Virus record (IMG/VR): IMGVR_UViG_3300030331_002330
Span: 1-28,428 of that record
Strand: one strand, 5' to 3'
From: a virus
DNA length: 28,428 bases
Shown here piece after piece: positions 1 through 28,428 of this stretch. The notes under the pieces were generated by a model. That model was not told where the DNA came from, did no database searches, and saw only the letters and a program-made list of their open reading frames with translations. The stretch's first letter is position 1, and each line of letters starts with the position of its first letter. A program made the translations under genes and the position numbers.

Positions 1-193
1 CGCCTTTGTCATTATGTTTTTTTTTGCATCTAATTATATATGTTAATGCTGTTGCCAAATGATATGGTAAATCAAACTGGTCACAAACATCCTTGGCCAT
101 CATACCGTTTTTACCTATATAATATTTTGGAATATTATCCTCATGTGGTTTATTCCTATCGTATTCATAATAATATTTACTTTTTTCTAACAT
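1..193 (-). CDS. DUF3310-like protein, partial (3' end outside window)
   Basis: The ATG at 193 opens a frame that runs to the left edge without a stop and overlaps the HNH gene by 17 bases. The visible 64 residues include KYYIGKNGMMAKDVCDQF and LPYHLATALTYIIRCKKKH (about 45-63). The latter matches the ...N/TALKYIxRxxKK... core of DUF3310, small phage proteins often annotated as nucleotide kinases but really uncharacterised. The C-terminus lies beyond the window. Residues continue beyond N-D-K-G. Confidence 0.7.
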   Translation of the reverse strand, partial: MLEKSKYYYEYDRNKPHEDNIPKYYIGKNGMMAKDVCDQFDLPYHLATALTYIIRCKKKHNDKG

Positions 194-509
194 AATTTTT
201 TATTTGTTTTCTATATTCTACACCTTCGTATGCAGATTTTATTGCATGGCATTTATTGCACAACGTTTGTAAATTGCTATTGTCCAACATATTTCCACCC
301 ATTGATATTGGCTTTATGTGGTCAACCATTTGTCCTGCTGTTGTTGTTCCTTTTCTTTTACAATGTTCGCACAAAGGGTTTGCCTTTATATAAAATTTTC
401 TGGTCATTCTCCATGCCTTGCTGTTGTAAAACATTTGATTGTTATTGTGCCTAATTTGTTTATTGGTTTTAATCCAACTTCTTTTTTTTGGTTTCGGTAA
501 TGTAGGCAT
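177..509 (-). CDS. HNH endonuclease
   Basis: This 110-residue protein matches phage HNH nucleases. The stretch FYNSKAWRMTRKFYIKANPLC...C (about 27-50) leads into a zinc pair (C47, C50), the catalytic MVDHIKPI (D63, H64), NSNLQTLCNKCH (N79, C84, C87, H88) and KSAYEG. In many HK97-type phages an HNH partner of the terminase is needed for cos cleavage. Here it lies at the end of the early block and the terminase is elsewhere in the window, so the partner role is an inference. Its stop overlaps the next gene start by 17 bases. Confidence 0.9.
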   Translation of the reverse strand: MPTLPKPKKRSWIKTNKQIRHNNNQMFYNSKAWRMTRKFYIKANPLCEHCKRKGTTTAGQMVDHIKPISMGGNMLDNSNLQTLCNKCHAIKSAYEGVEYRKQIKNYVRKK

Positions 510-23840: not shown

Positions 23841-25385
23841 CTATAATGTTATTATTCCTCTATTATCATAAACACTATCACCAGATTCTGTTGTCAAATA
23901 ACAACCTAATGCCATAATTAAAGCAATAACAGGGTCAACTTTTTCTTTGGATTTATTTTTGGCTACTTTTATATTACCTGCAGGGTCCTCTTGCAACGAC
24001 ACATTGCTAATGCACCAATTCATGCAAGGGTTATTATTATGTATAATATTTTTGGCCAATATTTCTGCCTCGAGTGTTTTTGTTGGCATTGACATACTTA
24101 CAAAACCTTGTCCAAAAGGGTCCATGTTAGCGCCATCATTTTGTAAATCAATAACAATTTGTGATGCATTCCATCTATCATAACATATACTTTGAATTCT
24201 ATATTTTTTTGATAAATCGTTTATTTTTTTTCTAATAAAATTATAATCTGCAACATCTCCTGTTGTTCCATATATATGTTTTTGTTTTAACCAAGTAACA
24301 TAATCAACACTATCGCGTTCACTCCTTTTTTTGGCATTATCCTCAGGTATAAAAATATATGGTATAAAAACAAATTTGCCATCTACGTTAAAAAGCAAAA
24401 CAAAGGCTGTTAAATCTCTAGTGGATGCCAGGTCCAAACCACCCCAACACTCTCTACCTTCTAATGTTTTATAGTCAAAATTGTCATAACACGCTTCCCA
24501 TTCCCCAGATGTTAGCCATGCACTTTGAGAATCCGTCCATTGATTTAACATCAATCTTCTAAATGTATTCTGATATGATGGTACATCTTTTGCTCTTTGG
24601 CTTTCCCTTTCCATATATTCCTTTTTAAGGCTAACACCATAATTTGGATTTGCTTTTATCCATGTTGATTCCAACGTAATGTCATCATCCATATGGGCCT
24701 CGTATATTACAGAATAAAATGTCTCATCAGTTATGGTACCATCACTTACTTTTTTTGCATAACTATATATTTCATAGCATATTGATTGTTTGTCATACCC
24801 TGCTGTTGTAATTGCAATGGTCAAAGGTTGCCTTCTAGACCCTACTGATGTTGTTAAAGTGTCCCACAAATCACGATTTGGTTGTGTATGAAGCTCATCA
24901 AAAATAATACAGTTAGCATTAAAACCATGTTTGGTTTTACTATCAGAACTAATTGCCTGATAAAAATTACCTTTACTTTCATTTACAATACTATTTCTAA
25001 AAACTTTGGCTCTGTTGGTCAGTTCATTATTTTGCATTACCATACCTTTGGCTATTTCAAAAACAATACCTGCTTGGCTTCTATCCCCTGCTGCACTATA
25101 AACCTCGCTTCCTCTTTCCTCATCTGCAAATAACATATACAATCCTATGGCGGCACAAAGCGTGCTTTTTCCATTCTTTCTAGGAACTTCAATAAAAACT
25201 GTTCTGTATTTTCTTAAATTTGTTTTTTTATTTTTCCATCCAAATATATCACCTACTATTTTGATTTGCCAATTTTCTAATTTAAATTTTTGATTGGTAA
25301 ACTCTCCCTTTGTGTGTGTTATAAATGTTTCTATAAATCCAATTGCTTTTTTTGCGGCGTTTTTATCAAAAAAATATTTAGTCAA
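23841..25385 (-). CDS. terL: Terminase large subunit (HK97/Terminase_1 type)
   Basis: This 514-residue packaging motor has both expected domains. The N-terminal ATPase shows a deviant Walker A VPRKNGKS (67-74), Walker B CIIFDE (159-164) and motif III-like ITTAG (192-196). The C-terminal RNase H-like nuclease shows its three acidic positions at GGLDLAST (D318), CYDRWN (D403) and KVDPVIAL (D484). It cuts concatemeric DNA and pumps it into proheads. The reading frame has an in-frame TAA four codons upstream of the TTG at 25385, and no ATG lies between, so TTG is the probable start; it overlaps the terS stop. A 75-base gap separates it from the portal gene. Length and motif order are normal for the family. 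Confidence 0.95.
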   Translation of the reverse strand: MTKYFFDKNAAKKAIGFIETFITHTKGEFTNQKFKLENWQIKIVGDIFGWKNKKTNLRKYRTVFIEVPRKNGKSTLCAAIGLYMLFADEERGSEVYSAAGDRSQAGIVFEIAKGMVMQNNELTNRAKVFRNSIVNESKGNFYQAISSDSKTKHGFNANCIIFDELHTQPNRDLWDTLTTSVGSRRQPLTIAITTAGYDKQSICYEIYSYAKKVSDGTITDETFYSVIYEAHMDDDITLESTWIKANPNYGVSLKKEYMERESQRAKDVPSYQNTFRRLMLNQWTDSQSAWLTSGEWEACYDNFDYKTLEGRECWGGLDLASTRDLTAFVLLFNVDGKFVFIPYIFIPEDNAKKRSERDSVDYVTWLKQKHIYGTTGDVADYNFIRKKINDLSKKYRIQSICYDRWNASQIVIDLQNDGANMDPFGQGFVSMSMPTKTLEAEILAKNIIHNNNPCMNWCISNVSLQEDPAGNIKVAKNKSKEKVDPVIALIMALGCYLTTESGDSVYDNRGIITL

Positions 25386-25854
25386 AGTAGTTATTTATTT
25401 GTGTATTATTATTTATAGTTGGTGCATTTATACTGGCTCTAGCTACAGGTGTTAATCCAAATTGTGTTGCCAGTTTTAAAGCGGTATTAAGCGCGTCCTT
25501 TGCAATTTTTTGGTATGGTACTGCTTGTGCATGTTTTATTGTTCCATCTGTATTTTTAAAAACCTGTATTCTTCCTTTTTCCCTTAGTAACATTTCTGTT
25601 TCTATATACAAACTTATTTCATTACAATATGCTTCGATTAATCTTAAATCAATATTGTGTAACATATTTAAATTAAATAATTGATTCGTAACTTTATACC
25701 ATTCTTTTTTTCCTATTTCAGATAACAACGCAGGTGGGTCTGGTATATTAGCAACCAAATCAACTTGCATTTCGTTTTCAACAATGCGACTAACGTCCAA
25801 TGTACCTTGCATTTCCTTAATCTTTGTTGGTAATTTTTTCCTGCCTTTTCCCAT
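25378..25854 (-). CDS. terS: Terminase small subunit, P27-like
   Basis: This 158-residue protein sits directly before terL and fits the P27-type small terminase family. It has a basic N-terminus (MGKGRKKLPTKIKEMQGT), then PDPPALLSEIGKKEWY (about 37-52), a helical middle including LRLIEAYCNEISLY, and a C-terminal KIAKDALNTALKLATQFGLTPVAR segment before a polar Asn-rich tail. Small terminases form rings that recognise the packaging site and regulate the large subunit. The ATG start lies inside the end of the epimerase gene (38-base overlap), and its stop overlaps the terL TTG start by 8 bases. The family call rests on motif resemblance and position. Confidence 0.85.
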   Translation of the reverse strand: MGKGRKKLPTKIKEMQGTLDVSRIVENEMQVDLVANIPDPPALLSEIGKKEWYKVTNQLFNLNMLHNIDLRLIEAYCNEISLYIETEMLLREKGRIQVFKNTDGTIKHAQAVPYQKIAKDALNTALKLATQFGLTPVARASINAPTINNNTQINNYFD

Positions 25855-26686
25855 TTTTAAATTTTTCTATATAATTTTCTAATGTGTGGTTTGTTTTCCA
25901 ATTTAATATTTTTTTGGTATCATTTTTTATTTCATATACTCCATATCTTTCACCTTTTTTTTCTGGTATCATTATTATGTTATCACTAAACATTCTTGCT
26001 ACATCTATTATTTTATAATTTTTTTCTGCGGTTAAATACCATTCGTGATTTTTATTTTGTGTTAATATTAATTCCAAAGCATTTATTATATCATCAATGT
26101 GTGTGAATTGGCGTGTTTGTTTTCCATCATAAACGACGGTTAATGGTTTTTGCTCATTGTATTGCTTTTCAAAAATTCCTATTACTGTTGCATAATTACC
26201 AGTGCTTATATGATTTTTTCCATACACATTATAGAAATAACATATTTCATAATTTATTTTAAACCATTTGGAATAATTTTTTATCAATTCAACCATTTTG
26301 GATTTTACCCAAGAATATGGGCTTAAATTTTCATTATTACCAAATTTTGAACTACTTGCAGAATAAATTAATTTTGCATTCCATTTTTTACATTGTTCAA
26401 TAACCTTGCTGGTACCATATAAATTGCTTTTGTACAAATATAAAACATCTTTAAATGAAGGTACCACCCTTGAATATTCTCCAAAATGAAAAACAATATC
26501 ATGTTTTTGTAAATTGGCTATTTCCCAACTATTTCCATAAACATAATTTATTCCTTCTATATGATTTGTGGAAGTTCCTGTAAAATAATTATCCAAACTT
26601 GTCAAAATATAATTTTTATTTTTACTTAATTTTTTTAATAAATTACTTCCTATATATCCTGCCCCACCAATTACCAATATTTTCAT
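25817..26686 (-). CDS. NAD-dependent sugar-nucleotide epimerase/dehydratase (extended SDR)
   Basis: This 289-residue protein is an extended short-chain dehydrogenase/reductase of the GalE-like epimerase group. It has the Rossmann GGAGYIG motif at residues 7-13, an acidic LDNYF turn (31-35), a serine-rich active-site strand SASSSKFG (109-116), catalytic YSWVK (Y124, K128), the FYNVYG strand (about 151-156) and RQFTHIDD (192-199), matching the RDFVHVDD substrate-site motif. Such enzymes interconvert or dehydrate NDP-hexoses in the cytoplasm. It starts with an ATGA overlap from the glycosyltransferase gene, pointing to provision of its donor sugar. Its 3' end overlaps terS by 38 bases, so it is embedded in the packaging operon. 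The exact sugar cannot be read from sequence; a role in host surface sugar alteration is the main alternative. Confidence 0.85.
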   Translation of the reverse strand: MKILVIGGAGYIGSNLLKKLSKNKNYILTSLDNYFTGTSTNHIEGINYVYGNSWEIANLQKHDIVFHFGEYSRVVPSFKDVLYLYKSNLYGTSKVIEQCKKWNAKLIYSASSSKFGNNENLSPYSWVKSKMVELIKNYSKWFKINYEICYFYNVYGKNHISTGNYATVIGIFEKQYNEQKPLTVVYDGKQTRQFTHIDDIINALELILTQNKNHEWYLTAEKNYKIIDVARMFSDNIIMIPEKKGERYGVYEIKNDTKKILNWKTNHTLENYIEKFKNGKRQEKITNKD

Positions 26687-27570
26687 TTTTTTTCTTTGTA
26701 AAAATCTTGCAATAATTTATTTTTTATTTCCTTTACTTTTTTTAATTTAAAATTTTTCTCTAGATTTTTTAGTTTATTCCAATCTATTGTTTTTTTTCTT
26801 ACCAGTTTATTTTTAAAATGTCCTTTCCAATCCACATAATGATGTGGTCTATCATACCTCATAATTGTTTTGACATATTGTGGCCATATTTCTTCTAATG
26901 ATTTTGTTTTTAAAACCTTTTTTTCATAAGCATTATTTTTATATAATTCGTCTTGATTGCCTCCTTTCATTTTAGCCACAGTACTGGTTTTATCAACAGT
27001 AAATGCATTAAATAATATTGTGCAATAGCCATTGTCCAAAACCTGTAAACATAAATCAACATCCTCATTATATTTTAATCTCCATCTATATGGCATATTA
27101 TTTTTTATTAACATTGCACTATATGCGTGAACATTTAAATAAAATGGTTTTTTATCACTACAACCTGGCACGACAAAAGTGCTATAATTAAAACCAGTTA
27201 TTGCTACATTTTCATATCTGTCTGTAAAATCCTCAACTGTTTGTAATGCCTTTTTTGCATTGCATGGTATTTTTAAACCTCTGTTTATTCTTCTAATTTT
27301 ATGTATGTTGTCATCAAAAAGCCAATGTCTATCATATCCTTTTTTTATACTATCTTCCCATGCAAAATTTCTCGCTGGATAACTACCAACACCAAGATTT
27401 TCAAAAGGCAATTCCATAACATATTTTTTTCCTAATACATCACAATAATTTTTATATTCTTGTGGTTCAACCAATATTTTAAAATCAACATTATCCTTAA
27501 TAAAAAACCTAGCAGTCAACGGATTTTCCCACCTGCCTTTTGATACAATATAAACTGGATATTTATTCAT
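26683..27570 (-). CDS. TET-associated-type glycosyltransferase (TAGT family, probable DNA base or other glycosyltransferase)
   Basis: This 295-residue protein resembles the TAGT family, GT-A-like enzymes described by comparative genomics in phage and TET/JBP-linked DNA hypermodification loci. Visible marks are the N-terminal YIVSKGRWENPLTARFF segment (about 7-23), WLFDDN with D86-D87 as the probable metal/nucleotide-binding acidic pair, and YNEDVDLCLQ (about 167-176), whose E169/D170/D172 match a GT-A catalytic region. The predicted role is transfer of a sugar from a nucleotide sugar to a base such as a hydroxymethylpyrimidine in phage DNA. The next gene encodes a sugar-nucleotide epimerase and overlaps by ATGA, which fits sugar-donor supply. 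No TET/JBP oxygenase or nucleotide hydroxymethylase is visible, so the acceptor is unproven. The lysine-rich C-terminus (about 250-295) may contact DNA. Confidence 0.75.
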   Translation of the reverse strand: MNKYPVYIVSKGRWENPLTARFFIKDNVDFKILVEPQEYKNYCDVLGKKYVMELPFENLGVGSYPARNFAWEDSIKKGYDRHWLFDDNIHKIRRINRGLKIPCNAKKALQTVEDFTDRYENVAITGFNYSTFVVPGCSDKKPFYLNVHAYSAMLIKNNMPYRWRLKYNEDVDLCLQVLDNGYCTILFNAFTVDKTSTVAKMKGGNQDELYKNNAYEKKVLKTKSLEEIWPQYVKTIMRYDRPHHYVDWKGHFKNKLVRKKTIDWNKLKNLEKNFKLKKVKEIKNKLLQDFYKEKK

Positions 27571-28153
27571 ATTTTAAACTTGATAAATCCTTTTTTTCTG
27601 TATATGGATAATTGGTTGACCATGTGTCCTTGGTTTTTTTACTAATAATTATATTGTATTTTTCCATAAATTCAAGCCTGTCATTATCATTTAAAAAATG
27701 AATTACTATTTTTAATGTATCTTCTTTTGATTCAAATTCTGGCATACCAACCCATTCGCTGGTCTCGTCACTTGAATTTACCTTATTAACCTCATCATCC
27801 ATATTTTTCCAAACATCAATTCCCCAGTCATTTAAATCCATACTATCCCATTCGTTTCCTAAAACCGACCAATCCCACTCGCCAAAACTTGCATTATCTT
27901 TTATTATAAATTCTTTTTTTTGTTCTTCGGTTAATCCTTTTGCAATTTTTACAGGAACATTTTTTAGTCCTGCTTTTAAACATGCTCTGTATCTCATATT
28001 GCCACCTAGAATTATATTATTTTCGTCAATAACAATAGGCCTTAATTCCAACATTTCTGGAAATTGTTTAATGCTATTAACCAATTTATTAAATTTTGCA
28101 TCATTAATTATACGAGGATTGCTCTCGTTTGATTTTATTTTTTTTATATCCAT
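27563..28153 (-). CDS. ParB/sulfiredoxin-like (ParB N-terminal fold) protein
   Basis: This 196-residue protein carries the ParB N-terminal domain pattern. NPR is at residues 12-14, followed by a helix running to about residue 30, a PIVIDENN strand-turn and an ILGGNMRYRACLKAG box (about 48-62) equivalent to the GxxRxxA motif. The following KDNASFGEWDW segment (about 85-95) is typical of phage versions usually found beside terminases and DNA methyltransferases. There is no ParB helix-turn-helix or dimerisation domain, so it is not a partition protein. The ParB fold can bind and hydrolyse nucleotides (CTPase or phosphotransferase relatives), and family members have been linked to phage base-modification loci. 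It abuts the zinc-ribbon gene and overlaps the glycosyltransferase gene by 8 bases. Its exact reaction is unknown. Confidence 0.85.
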   Translation of the reverse strand: MDIKKIKSNESNPRIINDAKFNKLVNSIKQFPEMLELRPIVIDENNIILGGNMRYRACLKAGLKNVPVKIAKGLTEEQKKEFIIKDNASFGEWDWSVLGNEWDSMDLNDWGIDVWKNMDDEVNKVNSSDETSEWVGMPEFESKEDTLKIVIHFLNDNDRLEFMEKYNIIISKKTKDTWSTNYPYTEKKDLSSLKYE

Positions 28154-28345
28154 TTAATTTTTTTTTAATGTTGGCTCTGTCCTAATTAATGTAGGAAAAC
28201 CACCAAATTCCTTTGCAATTTCTTGCATATAATTTCCACATTTACATTTGGCTTCTTTTGTTCTAACAGTCCCTTCAAAAATTTCTAAAGTAGCTTTTTC
28301 TAATTTTTTTTCTATTTTACATATTTTACAAAAATATTTAAACAT
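28154..28345 (-). CDS. Small zinc-ribbon-like protein
   Basis: This 63-residue protein has a CxxC pair (C6, C9) and a CxC pair (C34, C36). The arrangement can form a single zinc ribbon or knuckle, with a basic, lysine-rich surface between the pairs. Such miniature zinc proteins are common next to terminase and DNA-modification genes in phages, but their roles are mostly unknown; binding nucleic acid or protein is the usual guess. Start is ATG. Its stop abuts the ParB-like start exactly (TAAATG), so the two are probably co-translated. I do not recognise a named family. It could equally be a structural zinc module working with the glycosyltransferase cassette downstream. Confidence 0.7.
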   Translation of the reverse strand: MFKYFCKICKIEKKLEKATLEIFEGTVRTKEAKCKCGNYMQEIAKEFGGFPTLIRTEPTLKKN

Positions 28346-28358
28346 TTTATTTGGTTTT

Positions 28359-28374
28359 AGTTTGAACTTAAACT
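28359..28374. promoter_or_regulatory. Imperfect palindrome upstream of the first gene
   Basis: A 16-base imperfect inverted repeat, AGTTTGAACTTAAACT, with perfect 5-base outer arms (AGTTT/AAACT) lies 14 bases upstream of the first start codon in the window (28345). It could be an operator half-site pair or a weak RNA hairpin. In such AT-rich DNA chance is a serious alternative. I see no convincing Bacteroidota promoter (-7 TAnnTTTG) beside it. The remainder of 28346-28428 shows no gene that I can support. Confidence 0.15.
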
Positions 28375-28428
28375 GATATATTAATATCTATACCCATATA
28401 TCCAATTTTGCGATATTGTTCTTACAAT

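Follow-up and report, generated by a model that had tools for sequence, protein, structure and literature searches.

We analyzed one IMG/VR virus record (IMGVR_UViG_3300030331_002330), and the window is this whole stretch of 28,428 bases; the system in question is a unit on its minus strand in which a ParB-like protein and a TAGT glycosyltransferase stand ahead of the terminase genes. Along the minus strand, the reading order is a zinc-ribbon gene, ParB, TAGT, an SDR gene, the gene for the terminase small subunit (terS) and the gene for the terminase large subunit (terL). The ParB/Srx-like protein (27563-28153, 196 amino acids) matches ParB_N (PF02195, E-value 3.1e-07), the TAGT glycosyltransferase of the GT-A fold (26683-27570, 295 amino acids) matches PF20691 (1.1e-39) and phrog_842, and the extended SDR nucleotide-sugar epimerase/dehydratase (25817-26686, 289 amino acids) matches Epimerase (PF01370, 1.1e-29). 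They are followed, on the same strand, by terS (25378-25854; Terminase_4, PF05119, 1.7e-19; phrog_83, 8e-31) and by an HK97-like terL with a TTG start (23841-25385; PF20441, 1.4e-49; PF03354, 8.3e-31). The computed gene overlaps are 8 bases for ParB/TAGT, 4 bases (ATGA) for TAGT/epimerase, 38 bases for epimerase/terS and 8 bases for terS/terL. The genes of the initial annotation, which had been made from the sequence alone, and the overlaps of 8 bases, ATGA and 38 bases that it listed are real, and the profiles confirm the families to which the genes were assigned.

The identification of the protein at 26683-27570 as a TAGT was confirmed by a profile search, in which it scored 136.9 bits against PF20691 (cut-off, 27.5 bits) and covered the whole profile (positions 1-205 of 205). 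Its predicted model (pLDDT 86.7) matched GT-A glycosyltransferases at Z scores of 13-14.6, and the nearest viral models were TAGT-domain proteins. By profile and predicted fold, the protein is a TAGT. Invariant across 42 homologues are FDDN (85-88), NED (168-170), GGNQ (203-206) and, within RxHH (241-244), the HH. This HH motif near the C-terminus is found in all ParB-linked primary TAGTs, as RxHH in nearly all of them (the Porphyromonas row reads MLHH), and is absent from the T6 enzyme, from the TET-linked enzyme of Nonlabens phage P12024L, and from three of the four second TAGTs of the relatives. The use of HH as a marker of ParB linkage was rejected, because HH is also present in TAGTs of Vibrio, Tenacibaculum and Kuja that have no ParB neighbor; the motif serves only to set its bearers apart from T6- and TET-type TAGTs and from most of the second type. 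In the TAGT tree, the rooting of which is made unsure by the long branches of T6, P12024L and the row for Porphyromonas, three of the four second TAGTs cluster with T6 and the P12024L TAGT (support 95/95). Among those that group with T6, the GGC motif of T6 is present in the two second TAGTs of the closest type, and variants of it otherwise. This likeness in clade and motif fits an extension of sugar on sugar, which is the activity of T6 (PMC13216743).

The N-terminal part of the ParB-like protein has the ParB_N motifs NPR (at 12), GGNMR (at 50) and IKDN (at 84), and its PF02195 score is 30.8 bits versus a cut-off of 26.3. Both profile comparison and Foldseek liken this domain to the ParB and Noc CTPases, the profile matching ParB CTPase structures at residues ~5-94 only. 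Matches to ParB stop near residue 96, and the remainder consists of a low-confidence linker and another domain (GMPEF...KTKxTW, ~128-190), which stands where the helix-turn-helix (HTH) region of a usual ParB would be. No ParA partner was recognized in the window. The ParB proteins of the other TAGT clade (those of phages c5, jlb1 and NTR1, of E. coli, and of virus HHTV-2) have a conserved C-terminal domain of another kind (YEP[TS]G ... RH ... ALVIID-like); i.e., two TAGT clades pair with ParB proteins bearing two different conserved C-terminal domains. In one relative (L124:7757-8002), an 81-amino acid protein consists of the GMPEF-type C-terminal domain alone and lies immediately upstream of TAGT.

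TAGT relatives were collected in one scan, comprising 80 viral loci, of which 54 are non-redundant at 95%. ParB lies upstream of TAGT in 47 of the 49 non-redundant viral loci with enough sequence, and terL is found no more than 1.3 kb downstream of TAGT in 28 of 30 non-redundant viral loci; the link of TAGT with a ParB-fold protein and the terminase, proposed from the window, is borne out by these counts. The exact 8-base ParB/TAGT overlap was found again in 18 of the 80 loci, and together these recurrences exceed what chance would give. The 38 bases shared by the epimerase gene and terS are not a conserved feature; in the nearest relative (L002), the overlap is 14 bases. What follows the pair varies among the relatives, with small genes of three unrelated families and terL genes of at least two, and the cassette stays beside whichever terminase is present. 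The window terL is of the Firmicutes type (44% identical to Firmicutes phage terminases), and the early genes of the window match relatives carrying another terminase family. A mosaic junction was observed at the SDR/terS boundary (25817-25854), where the terminase and structural genes of the window are of a different lineage.

In Bacteroides phage BS-TP3, Streptococcus phage Javan316 and one further locus (L119), DNA methyltransferases fill the place that lies after ParB and before the terminase; it should be noted that a ParB query from BS-TP3 retrieved only 7 loci. On a contig from a Melioribacter metagenome-assembled genome (MAG), a queuine-tRNA-ribosyltransferase-like protein (L123:588-1358; phrog_887, 6.4e-30) is located between two ParB genes, upstream of TAGT, and may be another enzyme of DNA modification at this place. 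In another phage (L122:2491-3713), the gene next after ParB encodes a PAPS-reductase-like protein, and terS and terL come behind it.

The TAGT profile was matched in all 15 records tested for the wider distribution of the unit. For example, the order in Lactobacillus delbrueckii phage c5 is cos, ParB, TAGT (PF20691, 4.5e-54), a small open reading frame (ORF), a terS-like gene and terL, and phage phiLdb has the same order with a split TAGT. The order ParB-TAGT-terS-terL is seen in L. gasseri phage jlb1 and Porphyromonas phage005, and ParB-TAGT-terL, with no annotated terS, in Nocardia phage NTR1, the Orf1 of which is ParB by PHROG. The virus HHTV-2, whose host Haloarcula hispanica is an archaeon, also has the ParB-TAGT pair, and its terL follows at a distance of 2.9 kb. 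In Escherichia coli phage vB_EcoS-683R6 and in Rac-family prophages, the order is trkG, ParB (ynaK), TAGT, a small ORF, terS and terL, and the RefSeq name of the TAGT in the E. coli Rac family is ‘GREB1-related protein’. The initial annotation had singled out the place beside terS as worth following; this placement is the rule for the family and is shared by Lactobacillus phages and E. coli prophages alike. Of 5426 complete E. coli genomes, 885 (~16%) cover at least 80% of the ynaK-TAGT query, a number that stands for prevalence and not for the number of events, as E. coli lineages are not independent. In derivatives of E. coli K-12, only the first 254 bases of this query are found, next to ydaY; the K-12 Rac prophage is without the TAGT, terminase and head-gene part that is present in other strains.

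The SDR protein has a GxxGxxG Rossmann motif (GGAGYIG at 7-13) and a YxxxK active-site motif (YSWVK at 124-128). Its closest solved structure is 6zl6 (8.9e-17), and the best solved matches are UDP-glucuronic acid (UDP-GlcA) 4-epimerase-like and UDP-GlcA decarboxylase proteins. None of the NCBIfam equivalogs tried for the SDR reaction (e.g., GalE, UXS, heptose epimerase) reached its cut-off; in Kuja, a UDP-glucose 6-dehydrogenase adjoins a homologue that is 43% identical. The SDR is present in 15 of the 46 non-redundant operons that could be read from ParB to terL. Therefore, the core unit is ParB-TAGT-terminase and not the three-gene cassette of the initial annotation, of which the ParB-TAGT pair beside the terminase is conserved and the epimerase is an optional accessory. 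Other extras in the same 46 operons are a second TAGT (7 operons), an FkbM-type methyltransferase (3), a sugar-binding glycosyltransferase (3) and a further putative glycosyltransferase, suggested by a DMD motif and with no Pfam or PHROG family match (2). Proteins of ~312 amino acids with a GT-A-like DMD motif and no Pfam or PHROG match were also seen between ParB and TAGT in L018 (5064-6002) and in six other cluster members.

We lean toward reading the unit as a ParB-guided nucleic-acid glycosylation writer that is expressed with the packaging genes. Such a writer, suggested at the outset, is the likeliest role given the ParB-TAGT-terminase context and the T6 relative, a characterized member of the family that glucosylates DNA containing glucosyl-hydroxymethylcytosine (hmC) (PMC13216743; PMC13390438). 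The ParB/Srx-type N-domain, which probably binds a nucleotide, would load the complex onto the phage DNA once this has been replicated, and the C-terminal domain of ParB would dock the cognate TAGT. The TAGT would then move a sugar from a nucleoside diphosphate (NDP)-sugar to DNA before its uptake by the terminase, with translational coupling presumably tying the writer to packaging. In the window phage, the SDR would remodel the sugar donor, whereas in relatives the sugar might be extended or decorated by a second TAGT that resembles that of T6, by an FkbM methyltransferase or by other glycosyltransferases. Virion DNA modified in this way would be resistant to the nucleases that it meets in the next host. 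DNA is favored as the acceptor because the characterized relative acts on DNA, because the slot between ParB and the terminase elsewhere holds methyltransferases, queuine-tRNA-ribosyltransferase-like or PAPS-reductase-like proteins, and because a ParB_N neighbor is known from the CmoX/CmoY carboxymethylcytosine loci, where the role of this adjacent protein is not known (PMC12783734). We infer DNA as the acceptor, ParB as the guide, coupling to packaging and protection of the DNA from this combined context.

An important question for this reading is how complete the genome is. The record is classed as linear in IMG/VR, and no exact end repeat of at least 10 bases was found at the ends of the window. 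The left end cuts a DUF3310-type gene, the N-terminal part of which is at 2-193 (minus strand). The frame of this gene runs from the left end (1-193) across the junction onto the right end (28346-28428), where the continuation ‘DCKNNIAKL’ resembles ‘DIRKAINHL’ of the homologues and the stop is reached shortly before the zinc-ribbon gene; the relatives have a DUF3310 gene at the equivalent place, upstream of the zinc-ribbon gene and ParB. Because the frame crosses the junction in this way, the window is probably a circularly permuted, essentially complete genome of ~28.4 kb. Several relatives (e.g., G004, G011 and G019) of 28-31 kb likewise appear to be permuted and close to complete. On the closed circle, an HNH endonuclease gene (177-509, minus strand; PF01844, 3.2e-11) stands a few genes upstream of ParB, and the window further encodes portal, protease, capsid and endolysin proteins.

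Several results weigh against a ParB-guided DNA writer. The window ParB has no recognizable HTH, so that its binding to DNA is putative. The nearest GT-A enzymes of solved structure, which include POMGnT1, GalNAc-T2, COLGALT1 and, weakly, a capsid glycosyltransferase of PBCV-1, have polysaccharides or proteins as their substrates; GREB1, a vertebrate relative of the TAGT family, has been reported to glycosylate a protein. Decay is observed among L. delbrueckii phages (L125, L133, H134), with the split TAGT in phiLdb, no ParB in Ld17 and only a TAGT remnant in Ld25A; thus, the unit is not essential. Enzymes that could prepare an acceptor were not found, either. TET/JBP (PF12851) had no match in the window even at an E-value of 10 and none in 48 relatives, with the control P12024L recovered, and homologues of thymidylate synthase (PF00303, the fold of dCMP/dUMP hydroxymethylases) were likewise absent from the window and from the 48 relatives. 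Neither family was found in c5, HHTV-2, NTR1, the Porphyromonas phage, jlb1, EcoS-683R6, Ld17 or phiLdb, and ThyX and 2OG-FeII_Oxy_3 were missing from all 16 records searched.

No C5 methylase (PF00145) was found in the scanned window proteins of at least 85 amino acids, the 2337-amino acid tail protein being left out; this family occurs in 3 of 48 relatives’ records, in none of the named cultured phages, and once in E. coli prophage CD09. No alpha-GT or beta-GT (GT-B) surfaced in the scanned window proteins, PF11440 and PF09198 not having been searched singly. Pfam and PHROG scans of the early-region proteins of the nearest relatives revealed nucleases, HTH proteins, single-stranded DNA-binding proteins and phosphoesterases, and no base-modifying enzyme among the families listed. 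Most of the viral records searched are fragments, and an enzyme of an unrecognized type would be missed. The explanation of the lacking acceptor enzyme as a fragment artefact is weakened, since the window ends nearly close and relatives with early regions are also without candidates. The initial annotation had allowed for a base-activating enzyme outside the window, which is unlikely because the genome looks complete and because the relatives and the cultured phages also lack TET/JBP and thymidylate synthase homologues. With no phage hydroxymethylase or TET/JBP found, the acceptor would be an unmodified or host-methylated base, or else would need an unrecognized enzyme. We tentatively suggest, as a possibility short of probable, that a ParB-dependent TAGT puts the sugar directly on an unmodified or host-methylated base just before packaging, without a hydroxymethyl handle.

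The main and serious rival is glycosylation of a protein, in which the target would be the terminase, the portal, the capsid or ParB itself, and ParB would be a nucleotide-dependent adaptor instead of a DNA guide. It is suggested by the lack of DNA acceptor chemistry in apparently complete genomes, by the protein glycosyltransferases and the PBCV-1 enzyme among the nearest GT-A folds, and by the packaging and head genes that adjoin the unit. We nevertheless consider it rather unlikely: the characterized phage TAGT acts on DNA, the ParB-linked slot holds DNA methyltransferases in other phages, the second TAGTs are T6-like, and terminases of differing families follow the same ParB-TAGT pair. A lower probability still is given to a classical pathway with a missing piece, i.e., hydroxymethylated pyrimidines that are supplied by an unrecognized phage enzyme or by the host and are glycosylated by TAGT. 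The best-known context of a TAGT is indeed TET-TAGT-methyltransferase, as in P12024L, and many early genes have no assigned function; on the other hand, the phage records from E. coli, lactobacilli, Nocardia, Porphyromonas and Haloarcula have the unit but no TET/JBP, thymidylate synthase or C5 methylase, and the HH motif of the ParB-linked TAGTs is absent from the T6 and P12024L enzymes.

If the glycosyltransferase, SDR and FkbM proteins altered the lipopolysaccharide or capsule of the host, superinfection would be blocked by lysogenic conversion. Surface glycan loci typically contain genes for SDR, FkbM and sugar-binding glycosyltransferase proteins, and Flavobacterium phage immuto carries a similar SDR in such a cluster; the unit, however, contains no gtrA/gtrB flippase or membrane protein, its pairing with ParB and terminase genes is constant, and its best profile is TAGT, which makes this explanation quite improbable. 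Finally, the match of the ParB_N domain to ParB and Noc CTPases could point to a plasmid-partition ParB that is adjacent to an unrelated moron TAGT without joint function. We hold this to be highly implausible, given that no recognizable HTH or ParA partner was seen, that the pair is found in two TAGT clades far apart, each with its own type of ParB C-terminal domain, and that the 8-base overlap is kept in 18 loci.

The ParB-guided writer that we favor shares features with several known systems. The TET/JBP-TAGT-methyltransferase operons, represented by P12024L, also have a TAGT within a small phage operon, whereas the window and its near relatives have ParB and the terminase as neighbors instead of TET/JBP or a methyltransferase; the P12024L TAGT is ~30% identical to that of the window and has no HH motif. 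The T6 beta-glucosyl-HMC-alpha-glucosyltransferase belongs to the same Pfam family, acts on DNA and resembles the second TAGTs of the relatives. It differs in that a thymidylate-synthase-type gene adjoins it, the acceptor is glucosyl-hmC and HH is missing, whereas the window has HH and no such gene. We place the unit outside the TET/JBP-TAGT and T-even hmC systems because the defining hydroxylase or hydroxymethylase was searched for and not found; in its manner of working, the unit may resemble them. BS-TP3 and Javan316 have the same ParB family at the same place before terS-terL, but their writer is a methyltransferase (a separate gene or fused), compared to a glycosyltransferase in the window. 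The ynaK/‘GREB1-related protein’ pair of the E. coli Rac family is like the window in the order ParB-TAGT-(hypothetical)-terS-terL, in the ParB/TAGT overlap and in RxHH, and is unlike it in a deeply diverged TAGT clade, another ParB C-terminal domain and the lack of an epimerase. The CmoX/CmoY system is, similarly, a phage DNA hypermodification locus with a ParB_N neighbor, although it employs a carboxymethyltransferase and a ligase and has no TAGT. No account of a ParB-TAGT-terminase unit was found in the literature searched, the coverage of which is incomplete, so that novelty is not proven.

TAGTs without alpha-GT or beta-GT were reported in 288 of 753 phage genomes and termed potentially novel transferases in 2026 (PMC13216743). 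Our results give many of these a context, i.e., a ParB partner, a place by the terminase and no known acceptor chemistry found. If the base is glycosylated directly, the unit would represent a kind of DNA glycosylation that does not depend on hmC, hydroxymethyluracil (hmU) or TET and that extends across phages from many bacterial phyla, to the Rac-family prophages of E. coli and to at least one virus of archaea. Cultured L. delbrueckii phages and ~16% of complete E. coli genomes carry the unit, so that standard laboratories could address the nature of the acceptor right away. The unit also suggests a function for the ParB-like ynaK, which E. coli K-12 has kept in its Rac prophage.

The scan of genomes for the host of the window yielded two MAG contigs only. 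The zinc-ribbon-like protein (28154-28345, minus strand, 63 amino acids, CxxC...CxC), the gene of which abuts ParB, has no Pfam match above the cut-off; of the 80 relatives, 9 have a homologue that precedes ParB, and the membership of this gene in the unit is uncertain.

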